Virus record (IMG/VR): IMGVR_UViG_3300028388_004389
Location: 1 to 21,137 of that record
From: a virus
Length of the DNA: 21,137 bases
Direction: 5' to 3' (one strand)
The position numbers and the translations under genes are program-made. How positions within the stretch are numbered: position 1 is the stretch's first letter; every line of letters starts with the position of its first letter. Shown piece by piece: positions 4,895 through 17,080 of the stretch. The notes beneath the pieces were generated by a model. It did no database searches. It saw only the letters and a list, made by a program, of their open reading frames with translations, and was not told the origin of the DNA.

Positions 4895-4902
4895 TATTTA
4901 TA
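4895..4902 (-). promoter_or_regulatory. T4-type late promoter box for the 67-21-22-23 head genes
   Basis: Perfect TATAAATA on the minus strand in the 39-base gap between genes 20 and 67-like, about 20 bases before the ATG at 4874, preceded by a run of T. No hairpin overlaps it. It probably drives the core, protease, scaffold and capsid genes up to the terminator at 1752-1776. Confidence 0.75.
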
Positions 4903-8714: not shown

Positions 8715-8733
8715 ACTTGTTGTCAATACAAGT
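8715..8733 (-). promoter_or_regulatory. Short dyad overlapping the gene 18 late promoter
   Basis: Inverted repeat ACTTGT / ACAAGT with a 7-base loop. On the minus strand the first A of the 5' arm is the last A of the TATAAATA box. The geometry is like the hairpins at 14712 and 17051, but this one is about 40 bases from the ribosome site and cannot hide it. With a stem of only 6 bp it may be chance. Confidence 0.35.
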
Positions 8734-8740
8734 ATTTATA
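8733..8740 (-). promoter_or_regulatory. T4-type late promoter box for the sheath and tube genes
   Basis: Perfect TATAAATA on the minus strand, directly before the end of gene 17 (stop at 8742-8744) and about 60 bases upstream of the gene 18 start. It separates the terminase genes from the highly expressed sheath and tube genes. A second, imperfect box (TATAAATT) lies at 8692-8699. Confidence 0.72.
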
Positions 8741-13958: not shown

Positions 13959-14708
13959 TTAACCTATAAACATATCAACAGGCATTTCGTGATTCATACG
14001 AATCTCTTCTTCCAGCTGTTGTATCTCATTTGTAGCATCATCAAATAGTTGACGACCATTTAGCATTACTCCACCAGGAAGCTGCATCCCTTCAAACTTT
14101 AATAAGTTTTGTCCCCACTGTCTCTTAACAAGAGCTGTAAAGTATTTCTTTAACCACATATCATTGTATACATCAGGATAGTTCGAAGGATCAACAGTTT
14201 GATATCCCTCTACAATTATATATTCACCTTCTTGGATTTCTTTGCCCCATTCTGAATCTAGATGAAGTTCATTCTTATGGCGACTAAAACGAATATGCTC
14301 CGTTCCATTGAGCATCATATCAATTGTTCCAAGATACTGTTGGATCTGATAATAATTTGAAAGGTTACCCATATGACCGAGCTGATACATATCATTCAAC
14401 ATCATTTGATAGCGAACATCAAACATGTTAACACCATAGCTGTTCTCGTCAGAAAAGGGGAAAATTCTAATAACAAAGATCAAGCTATCTGGAAGAGTTA
14501 TAAATCGATTTGAAACATCTTGGGCTGTAACTTCATGCTTATAATACATCCGAGATGTTGAGTCAGAATGATATTCTTGCCAATACTGAATAGCTTCATC
14601 CAAACGATCGCTCGCCTGATCATCATCGACGTTAATTTCGAGCACAGGTGCACCTAATGATCTGTAGGCGTACTCGATTAATTCTATTCGTGTTTGTGGT
14701 GCTGCCAT
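13959..14708 (-). CDS. 13: Neck protein gp13
   Basis: Head-completion protein that binds under the portal and with gp14 forms the neck. It has 249 residues, T4 309. Signature regions are the N-terminal helix TRIELIEYAYRSLGAPVLEI, VDDDQASDRLDEAIQYWQEY, FPFSDENSYGVNMFDVRYQM and the C-terminal WLKKYFTALVKRQWGQNL. Its ribosome site, AGGG eight bases before the ATG, lies in the 3' arm of a 12-bp hairpin overlapping a late promoter box. Translation may therefore depend on where the RNA starts. It is followed by gene 14 two bases later. Confidence 0.94.
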   Translation of the reverse strand: MAAPQTRIELIEYAYRSLGAPVLEINVDDDQASDRLDEAIQYWQEYHSDSTSRMYYKHEVTAQDVSNRFITLPDSLIFVIRIFPFSDENSYGVNMFDVRYQMMLNDMYQLGHMGNLSNYYQIQQYLGTIDMMLNGTEHIRFSRHKNELHLDSEWGKEIQEGEYIIVEGYQTVDPSNYPDVYNDMWLKKYFTALVKRQWGQNLLKFEGMQLPGGVMLNGRQLFDDATNEIQQLEEEIRMNHEMPVDMFIG

Positions 14709-14711
14709 TGT

Positions 14712-14740
14712 AATAGCCCTAGAGTTGTTCTAAGGCTATT
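14712..14740 (-). promoter_or_regulatory. Hairpin covering the gene 13 ribosome site (copy 1)
   Basis: A 12-bp stem (5' arm AATAGCCTTAGA, 3' arm TCTAGGGCTATT in the coding sense, one G-U pair) with a 5-base loop ACAAC. The 3' arm contains AGGG, the only ribosome-site-like sequence, eight bases from the gene 13 ATG. There is no T-tract after it, so terminator function is unlikely. The 5' arm begins inside the TATAAATA box, so RNA started at that promoter should lack most of it. Confidence 0.75.
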
Positions 14741-14745
14741 TATAA
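14715..14745 (-). repeat. 31-bp direct repeat, copy 1
   Basis: Matches 17051-17081 at 30 of 31 positions. Contains the late promoter octamer and most of the hairpin. The two copies flank the 762-residue fibre gene. Confidence 0.9.
14737..14744 (-). promoter_or_regulatory. T4-type late promoter box for gene 13
   Basis: Perfect TATAAATA on the minus strand, 28 bases upstream of the gene 13 ATG. Its last four bases are the first four of the hairpin stem at 14712-14740. From the T4 rule (octamer at about -13 to -6) the start site would be near 14731-14732, within the 5' arm. Confidence 0.78.
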
Positions 14746-14755
14746 TGATTTGATA

Positions 14756-17044
14756 CTAGGTGTATACAGCGAAGCCAATATAATCAACGGGCATAGTATC
14801 ATATGCTGATTGCTTACCCAACCCCCCAACGGTGTAATATTGCTCTACAACCGTTGATGATGTTTGAGCTGGTATATTATAATACCAATTAACAAAGTAA
14901 TTTATCCTAAAATGTTGATTAAATAAAGAGTCTTCAATGGGACCAAACGTATTTGTTGTTACAAAATTGGTCGGACTAAATGATATCCCATTACTAGTTA
15001 GTACTCTCAATGCAAATGAGGGCCTGGACAAACCATCAACAAAATCCTCAGATGACACATCTAATACTAAACCATCCGGAAGGTTTAAAAGATTGCTACT
15101 ATTAAAGCCTGTGTCAATAACCGCAAGCTGACCACTCGGAACTATCATTTCAGCTAGCTCATTACTGGCTCCAAAATTTCCTGCGGCCGCGTATGGTTCA
15201 ACTTCTGCTCTGTTTAGATACTCAAAGTCATACTGGGAGGATGGGGCACTAATGAGAATATTGTATCCAGTAGCTCCGTTGCCCGTAACAATCCTTGCTT
15301 GTACATCAACCTCTTCAGACTCAGCTGTTGTAACTGTTATTGTCTCGCGCGCAAAATAACCGTTAAAACCAGTTTGAGTCCATCCAGGATATGCTAATTT
15401 ACCACCATCAATTAATAGATCAGGAGTTTCTGCCGAAGTTAGATCGTAAAGAGGCGCCTCTATGTAGTGCCATAGGGGCTGCCAACCATCAACGTTATTG
15501 TACCCCCACATAACAACACTCTTAGCTCCATCAAAGTTAGAGGCCGGCCGATCACTTAAGCCAATTGCTCCAGCATTGACTCCATAAGAATTTGTAGCAC
15601 CTGACTCTTCAAATGCAATAACAGCTTGATTCCCGTTGCTATCTTCAGATAAAAACCTACACGTCTTATCCTGAAACCACCCCGTATCTCCATTCCTAAG
15701 AAGTGGAACACTCTGATAACCACCTTCTTGATAATCGCCATTGGATAAAAATAGATCAATCATTGATCTCAAAGTAGTCCCTTTGGCTGGAGATTCAATA
15801 ACAGTGAAGTCTGCTAAAACAGATCCTATAAAATCAATGTTAGGAATCGCAGGAGTAGCACTTGGTATAAAGTTGGCGCCAGCAGTTTCGATTGCTGCCG
15901 ATGCCAATACTTTAAAGCTGAGCATTGTATTGGTCTCGTTGCCAACACCGTCTATAATACCAACATAAAAATTAAACGTCGCATCACTTGTTACGTTAGG
16001 ACTTGTTCCAGAGATCAAACCGTCTGCAGATAAAGTTAATCCCGAAGCAACTGTTCGATCTACCTTTTCCTCTGTATAAGTGCCATCTGTATACACTTTA
16101 AATGAAAAGTCGGTAATACTATTATCATCGCTAATAAACGCATTAGTCCTGATTGATATATTTACAGCTCTATCTGAAAGAACAGAAAATACAACAGTTG
16201 GACCCACCCATTGTGGTTTCAGGCCAGTTTGAATAGCGTTGATTGCACTTGCTGCTAAACCATCTGGGTTAGTAAGTATAACTGATAAAGGACCTTCATC
16301 TGCAGTAAATTCTCTACTGAATGCAAATTCAGCATTTGTTGGAGAAGTTACCTGTATAAAATTTGGAGTAAGGGATAGATTTTGCTGTGTTTGTACACTG
16401 ATAGTAGCATCTGGATTGAAATTGGATCCTACAATTTGAAACACAACATCTGATTCACCAGTATAGTTTTCACCACTTCCTGTAATAACTTCAGAAATTG
16501 ACGGAACTGATCCTCCACCAACCAGGTTAATCCAGGCCGCACCTGTCCATATTTTAACAGCTTGCTCAGAAGTGATTACATATATTTGACCAATGGCTGC
16601 ATCCTGAGGAAGCAAGTCTGAGGTATTAATTACACCAGTGGCAGCTGTCGTTAGATCACTTGTGATCTGCTGATTTCCAACGTACAACTCATTGAAAAAT
16701 CCTGAGCTCCATCGCCGAGCAAGAGATCCTACACTAAACTGATTATCAACTGTCGGTAGAATATCATTCGATATACTATCAATAACGACCTGGTCACTTG
16801 TTGCCTGTACCCACTGTGCACCATCAACATCAGAGTAATATATATACAATTCGAGGTTAGATGTGTTGAACCACACATCGCCCGGCTCTGCATCAAGCGG
16901 AGGTGTATCGCCTGATACAATACTGGCGTTTCCACCACTAATATCAGATTCAGTTTTAATCCACTTGACACCATCCCATTCGAAGGTACTACCGGCTACT
17001 TCAGCCTCGGTACCAACTGTGGGATTTACAGGAAATAATGACAT
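14756..17044 (-). CDS. Large tail-fibre/adhesin-like structural protein with Ig-like domains
   Basis: Not a recognised T4 gene; 762 residues. The N-terminus carries the fibre motif FPVNPTVG...FEWDGVKWIK (4-30). GDVWFNTSNLELYIYY (55-70) follows, then a DLGS-like fibre strand (SVGSLARRWSSGFFNELYVG, 104-123) and an IWTGAAW module (165-171). Residues 181-275 look like an IPT/TIG-type Ig domain (FQIVGSNFNPDATISV ... VILTNPDG). Residues 278-381 look like a putative-Ig/cadherin type (GLTLSADGLISGTSP). The C-terminal half (390-762) is beta-rich and unrecognised; it may be the receptor-binding part. The gene lies alone between two copies of a promoter-hairpin repeat. Role in adsorption is inferred from domain types and position. 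Confidence 0.8.
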   Translation of the reverse strand: MSLFPVNPTVGTEAEVAGSTFEWDGVKWIKTESDISGGNASIVSGDTPPLDAEPGDVWFNTSNLELYIYYSDVDGAQWVQATSDQVVIDSISNDILPTVDNQFSVGSLARRWSSGFFNELYVGNQQITSDLTTAATGVINTSDLLPQDAAIGQIYVITSEQAVKIWTGAAWINLVGGGSVPSISEVITGSGENYTGESDVVFQIVGSNFNPDATISVQTQQNLSLTPNFIQVTSPTNAEFAFSREFTADEGPLSVILTNPDGLAASAINAIQTGLKPQWVGPTVVFSVLSDRAVNISIRTNAFISDDNSITDFSFKVYTDGTYTEEKVDRTVASGLTLSADGLISGTSPNVTSDATFNFYVGIIDGVGNETNTMLSFKVLASAAIETAGANFIPSATPAIPNIDFIGSVLADFTVIESPAKGTTLRSMIDLFLSNGDYQEGGYQSVPLLRNGDTGWFQDKTCRFLSEDSNGNQAVIAFEESGATNSYGVNAGAIGLSDRPASNFDGAKSVVMWGYNNVDGWQPLWHYIEAPLYDLTSAETPDLLIDGGKLAYPGWTQTGFNGYFARETITVTTAESEEVDVQARIVTGNGATGYNILISAPSSQYDFEYLNRAEVEPYAAAGNFGASNELAEMIVPSGQLAVIDTGFNSSNLLNLPDGLVLDVSSEDFVDGLSRPSFALRVLTSNGISFSPTNFVTTNTFGPIEDSLFNQHFRINYFVNWYYNIPAQTSSTVVEQYYTVGGLGKQSAYDTMPVDYIGFAVYT

Positions 17045-17050
17045 TACGAA

Positions 17051-17073
17051 AGCCCTAGAGTTGTTCTAGGGCT
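17051..17073 (-). promoter_or_regulatory. Hairpin covering the 762-aa fibre gene ribosome site (copy 2)
   Basis: A 9-bp perfect stem (AGCCCTAGA / TCTAGGGCT in the coding sense) with the loop ACAAC. As in copy 1, AGGG in the 3' arm is eight bases from the ATG (17044) and is the only ribosome-site-like sequence. The first A of the 5' arm is the last A of the TATAAATA box. Only three T residues follow, so it is not an ordinary terminator. Confidence 0.75.
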
Positions 17074-17080
17074 ATTTATA
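17073..17080 (-). promoter_or_regulatory. T4-type late promoter box for the 762-aa fibre gene
   Basis: Perfect TATAAATA on the minus strand, four bases after the stop of the 758-residue gene and 28 bases upstream of the ATG at 17044. The expected start near 17067-17068 would leave only three or four bases of the hairpin's 5' arm in the RNA. Confidence 0.78.

Follow-up and report, generated by a model that had tools for sequence, protein, structure and literature searches.

A late promoter fused to a hairpin that masks the ribosome site (SD) is a known architecture, reported for the T4 genes e (lysozyme), soc and 49 (PMC3014915) and for I-TevI, segB and Aeh1 mobE (PMC2988022). In T4 genes e, soc and 49, the late octamer is joined to an SD hairpin and the late RNA lacks the 5' arm of that hairpin (PMC3014915); the leaders of T4 I-TevI/II/III and segB and of Aeh1 mobE share this promoter-hairpin logic (PMC2988022). 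T4-type phages also carry PeSL cassettes, which, as far as the passages cited in PMC4503421 describe them, consist of an early promoter and a terminator-like stem-loop and form a short unit that is repeated within a genome at module borders. Here we describe two elements that resemble the gene e design in a marine T4-like phage. The DNA analysed, referred to as the window, is a 21-kb fragment (21,137 nucleotides in full) of an uncultured T4-like virus, and the elements precede its gene 13 and a gene for a 762-residue protein.

Genomic setting of the elements

The window encodes capsid, scaffold, protease, portal, tail tube, sheath, terminase, sheath-stabiliser, neck (gp13 and gp14) and fibre-like proteins, and all of its genes lie on the minus strand. 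Gene 13 comes after fibre-like genes and is the first in a series of neck, sheath-stabiliser and terminase genes that continues downstream. Family matching confirmed the gene 13 product as head-tail adaptor Ad2 (PHROG 211, E 8e-43), and the 762-residue product is weakly assigned as a tail fibre (PHROG 9729, E 3e-10). Co-directional genes lie upstream of both hairpin elements. These upstream genes, both in the window and in the majority of five large relatives that we inspected, look late, being fibre-like or long and structural-looking, a call made partly from position and size for genes most of which have no family match. Late octamers precede some of them.

Anatomy of the two elements

On the minus strand, the gene 13 leader reads TATAAATAGCCTTAGA-ACAAC-TCTAGGGCTATT-ACA-ATG and the fibre leader reads TATAAATAGCCCTAGA-ACAAC-TCTAGGGCTTTCGTA-ATG. 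The former contains a 12-bp stem, AATAGCCUUAGA/UCUAGGGCUAUU, with one U-G among its pairs, and the latter a 9-bp stem, AGCCCUAGA/UCUAGGGCU; the loop is ACAAC in both. The octamer TATAAATA adjoins or overlaps both stems (Table 1). An initial annotation of this DNA had described an octamer that runs into an ACAAC-loop hairpin of 12 or 9 bp, with AGGG inside the 3' arm and exactly 8 nt from the ATG, and we confirmed each of these features at both sites. The same annotation had stated that the copies differ at a single position. This holds within the shared 9-bp stem, where a C is changed to a U opposite G, but not outside the stem, where the copies diverge and are 83% alike over 48 nt.

Table 1. 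Features of the gene 13 and fibre gene elements in the window
Feature	Position	Strand	Basis or remark
Gene 13 (neck protein, head-tail adaptor Ad2, 249 aa; ATG at 14708)	13959..14708	-	PHROG 211, E 8e-43
T4-type late promoter octamer TATAAATA, gene 13	14737..14744	-	exact match; fixed anchor of the hairpin in relatives
Gene 13 5' arm AATAGCCUUAGA, which shares the octamer's last 4 bases	14729..14740	-	12-bp helix; covaries with the 3' arm in relatives
Gene 13 predicted late +1 (6th base past the octamer)	14731	-	inferred from T4 rule -13..-6 (PMC1524935)
Gene 13 3' arm UCUAGGGCUAUU, with AGGG ribosome site at 14717-14720	14712..14723	-	predicted SD unpaired probability
Probable tail fibre gene (762 aa; ATG at 17044)	14756..17044	-	PHROG 9729, E 2.8e-10
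Late promoter octamer TATAAATA, fibre gene	17073..17080	-	exact match
Fibre 5' arm AGCCCUAGA	17065..17073	-	9-bp stem, folding
Fibre predicted late +1	17067	-	inferred from T4 rule (PMC1524935)
Fibre 3' arm UCUAGGGCU, with AGGG at 17053-17056	17051..17059	-	9-bp stem, folding

Perfect hairpins of at least 9 bp start within 5 nt of approximately 1.0% of window positions, and for a perfect 12-bp hairpin the figure is 0.05% of positions, which argues against a chance occurrence. Local folding gave z scores of -5.4 for the gene 13 element and -3.6 for the fibre element, with none of 200 shuffles folding equally well. The window has three other octamers (1741-1748, 4895-4902 and 8733-8740), which precede tail-tube, prohead-core and sheath genes, and a ribosome-site hairpin is absent from all three. 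The gene 13 and fibre copies are so alike that they probably arose by duplication of one cassette rather than independently. Searches with Rfam covariance models produced no match to the element up to E 1.

Predicted effect of the transcription start site

T4 late octamers occupy positions -13 to -6 (PMC1524935). By this rule, +1 would be the sixth base after the octamer and would fall within the 5' arm, so that a late RNA would retain just AGA of that arm; the late start proposed by the initial annotation, about six bases past the octamer, fits the same rule. Predicted folding of the gene 13 RNA gives -17.1 kcal/mol for the long form and -3.6 kcal/mol for the late-start form, the latter being no better than shuffled sequences, and the corresponding values for the fibre RNA are -15.2 and -2.1 kcal/mol. 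The predicted probability that the gene 13 SD is unpaired is 0.00 in read-through RNA and 0.52 in late-start RNA. Likewise, the mean unpaired probability of the SD is 0.14 in long RNA and 0.44 in late-start RNA, and 71% of the paired bases of the 5' arm lie upstream of +1. The 5 bases between octamer and +1, where T4 late promoters prefer A/T (PMC2988020), are 51% GC at hairpin-linked promoters, compared with 35% at other late promoters (p 1e-8).

These predictions are consistent with a switch of the following kind. RNA that enters from upstream would hold both arms and would fold, leaving the SD AGGG paired, and the paired SD would keep the 30S subunit off, such that gene 13 (or the fibre gene) would go untranslated from read-through RNA. 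RNA from the late promoter would begin within the 5' arm, approximately 6 nt past the octamer, and would be unable to fold and hence be translated. The outcome would be a gene 13 that relies on its own late promoter and not on read-through from the upstream fibre genes. The proposal that read-through RNA is blocked and late RNA freed had been made in the initial annotation, and it gains support both from the predicted loss of structure in the late-start RNA and from covariation of the arms among relatives, described below. Judging from this comparison and from the folding models, we consider it quite likely that both elements join a late promoter to a translation block that depends on where the RNA starts, and translation of gene 13 and of the fibre gene is probably confined to the late transcript of each gene's own promoter. 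Since the upstream genes look late, the RNA that is blocked may be a late polycistronic transcript and not an early one; with a read-through source that is likely late, the purpose of the block may be less timing than stoichiometry or insulation.

Covariation of the arms among relatives

Three gp13 queries led to 186 distinct gp13 leaders, many of them from short contigs and with gp13 starts assigned by rule, and 146 of these leaders contain the exact octamer. Hairpins were called at thresholds of our own setting (MFE -7, 5 pairs upstream of +1). For 47 gp13 leaders with below 80% similarity to one another and a length of 25 nt or more, the two halves of the same leader fold together with a mean MFE of -7.7 kcal/mol, compared with -4.0 kcal/mol for permuted halves (z -10.3, 0/2000). 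When the 22 hairpin-bearing leaders are considered, the values are -13.8 with their own arms and -8.1 with foreign arms (z -9.3, 0/5000). When 24 leaders are aligned by MAFFT from sequence alone, 85% of the cells are paired, compared with 34-43% when partners are slid, and 28 cells are compensated on both sides, compared with 9.3 after shuffling (0/500); changes on both sides occur in 7 of the 12 pairs. The nearest relative, L213, whose gp13 is 68% identical, has GCCCCAGA/TCTGGGGC where the window has GCCTTAGA/TCTAGGGC, and further arm pairs are AATAGTTCCAGA/TCTGGAACTATT in L276 and AATAGTCCCAGAA/TTCTGGGACTATT in L200. Compensation between the arms in relatives, which had been put forward at the outset as a check on the switch, is thus strongly borne out. 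Some leaders speak against the switch: in L008, L027 and L280 the SD lies mostly outside the helix. Seven other gp13 leaders (L222, L224, L226, L229, L230, L237 and L239) have a TAGTAGTA/TACTACTA hairpin after the octamer and no recognisable SD before ATGATACC.

The inverted repeat abuts the late octamer in every case, as might be expected of a repeat that works at the DNA level, perhaps by binding a protein at the promoter, with the RNA hairpin being incidental. However, U-G pairs are preserved on the sense RNA (21 of 277 pairs), mean folding is stronger for the sense strand than for the antisense strand (-13.4 vs -11.6), and the arm sequences and loop lengths vary widely, unlike those of a protein site. 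Given the U-G pairs, the folding advantage of the sense strand and the variable arms, we judged a palindrome acting at the level of DNA to be unlikely and give it hardly any credence.

The relatives also bear on whether the hairpin is an intrinsic terminator for upstream transcripts, at which RNA from the promoter inside could not terminate. Gp13 leaders L190, L125 and L213 and fibre leaders L116 and L122 combine a U-run past the stem with a positive terminator score, and T-runs before the ATG are longer in hairpin leaders than in others. The score is nevertheless positive in just 3 of 22 gp13 representatives, the window copies score -34 and -7, and gene 13 has a single T in the 8 nt past its stem. 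Furthermore, the extra Ts pair in part with the octamer, and a terminator has no need of an SD in its 3' arm. We therefore rejected termination as the general role of the hairpin, given the lack of a U-run in the window copies and the few positive gp13 relatives, and regard this explanation as improbable. In the relatives that do bear U-runs, especially in the fibre copies, termination may act alongside translation control or in its place.

Spread and specificity of the hairpin

Among loci picked solely by gp13 protein similarity, the hairpin is present at 47 of 124 octamer-led gp13 genes and at 3 of 76 other octamer-led genes (Fisher p 9e-9), with shuffled leaders giving approximately 1%. Eight large contigs have it at 4 of 6 gp13 sites and at 0 of 59 others. 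A pattern scan of viral contigs in which four pairs were left free and gp13 was not used returned at least 11 ORF-linked matches, all of those listed having gp13-type N-termini, and among the matches listed all four pairs agreed in 8 of 11 that are ORF-linked, compared with 8 of 57 without an ORF. With one pair left free, there were 36 gene-linked matches, 35 of them pairable and about 20 of them gp13; tail-fibre genes (L116, L122, L157 and L166), DUF7207 genes (L086, L094 and L098), a SegE-type GIY-YIG gene (L179) and a DSP phosphatase (L124) were also returned. As a positive control, the scan selected exactly one gene, e, within the 49 kb of T4 examined. Using the exact arms and loop of the window as the pattern gave no match in viral contigs, and the fibre N-terminus as a query found no relative.

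Other genes stand behind similar leaders. A DUF7207 protein of unknown function is encoded behind a late-promoter hairpin in L086, L094 and L098. The SegE-type GIY-YIG gene (L179:1741-2166 (+)) and an ORF that is endonuclease-like by its N-terminus (L149, near 9785 (-)) have the promoter-hairpin design, as in the known homing-endonuclease cases.

Approximately two thirds of the sampled gp13 genes have no hairpin, and it is missing ahead of gp13 in all 10 named phages (T4, Cr30, DLP6, phiM12, S-CAM9, S-8S55, Melnitz, P-SSM4, Syn1 and Mosig). Two of these phages have structures of other kinds at this site. Before the Syn1 gp13 (L390, about 2335-2375), a strong stem, AGTCCCTGCCTG...CAGGTAGGGACT, is followed by TTTTT, and its loop contains the late octamer GATAAATA; the promoter here sits within a hairpin that resembles a terminator. 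T4 gene 13 has a GC-rich GGGGCC-GCAA-GGCCCC hairpin ahead of it (L382, just upstream of 33625). On a quick tree of 139 gp13 proteins, 40 of which have the hairpin, 17 changes are needed (at least 10 on starred branches), compared with 34.9 for shuffled labels; as read from this tree, the hairpin is clustered, yet repeatedly gained or lost.

An independent relative, G016 (gp13 59% identical), has the hairpin both before gp13 and before a fibre gene approximately 21 kb away. Its two copies (L391:744 (-) and L392:2280 (-)) are identical save for one C to U change in the 5' arm of the gp13 copy, and their upstream flanks are similar. Since G016 mirrors the arrangement in the window, down to a C to U difference between the copies, it suggests that a late-promoter/hairpin cassette has been copied within genomes. 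Near-identical gp13 and fibre copies in one genome, in the window and in G016, together with the similar upstream flank in the latter, would also suit an element that is chiefly a cassette prone to movement or recombination, the late-promoter equivalent of PeSLs, which spreads by recombination between module borders and whose hairpin has no strong effect on translation. Recombination, however, needs no covariation of the arms between phages with the SD kept paired, and cassette mobility could explain the copying but not the structure, and we find it very unlikely that the element is mainly such a cassette.

A class of gp13 leaders with predicted leaderless late RNA

A different arrangement is found in 15 distinct gp13 leaders (L009, L031, L036, L043, L047, L053, L058, L061, L072, L233-L236, L029 and L035), where the octamer TATAAATA lies 5-6 nt before the ATG; 10 of the 15 are without an SD of at least 3 nt. 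This spacing would put +1 on the A of the AUG or one base before it, so that the predicted late RNA would be leaderless. Such a design would likewise bind translation of gp13 to its own late promoter. Taking the two classes together, we tentatively raise the possibility that in marine T4-like phages gene 13 is subject to an own-promoter-only rule that is reached by two unrelated designs, one an SD-masking, covarying hairpin and the other a leaderless late RNA with read-through RNA mostly lacking an SD, the hairpin residing on a copyable late-promoter cassette that also serves fibre genes.

Comparison with known systems

Like a gene e-type switch, the element has an octamer at its 5' arm, a predicted SD helix in the long RNA and a compensated helix in relatives. 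By sequence and by modelled structure, it probably belongs with the T4 gene e-type switches as a real member. When compared with PeSLs, as far as the cited passages describe them, the element shares the repeated copies at module borders (in the window and in G016) and has no early promoter with a terminator stem-loop; a late octamer takes the place of the early (sigma-70) promoter, and the stem holds the SD and has no U-run. The use of this logic on gene 13 and the fibre gene is a new instance, as had been suggested, but the idea itself is not new, the T4 late capsid gene soc being already ribosome-site-masked. In a search confined to open papers, we found no report of the gene 13 hairpin, of its spread or of the paired gp13/fibre cassette. 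The mechanism is known, and the gene, the spread and the paired cassette appear to be unreported in those papers.

A mode of control described chiefly for homing endonucleases and for T4 lysozyme, soc and gene 49 would thereby be extended to a core head-neck gene, with support from covariation across many uncultured marine phages. This suggests that the neck (and fibre) proteins must stay independent of read-through from a shuffling fibre module. The T4-like octamer places the predicted transcription start to within one or two bases, which makes a direct test of the switch feasible. In T4 gene e (TATAAATACCTTCTATAAATACTTAGGAGGTATTATG), the AATA of the octamer forms the base of the stem, as it does in the window. 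Unlike the mobile endonuclease genes I-TevI/II/III, segB and mobE, gene 13 belongs to the conserved structural core. Relative to T4 gene e, soc and gene 49, the window elements serve other genes (neck and fibre) in other phage lineages, have a stem sequence of their own and occur as two copies within a single genome, and the RNA that reaches them from upstream is probably late, not early.
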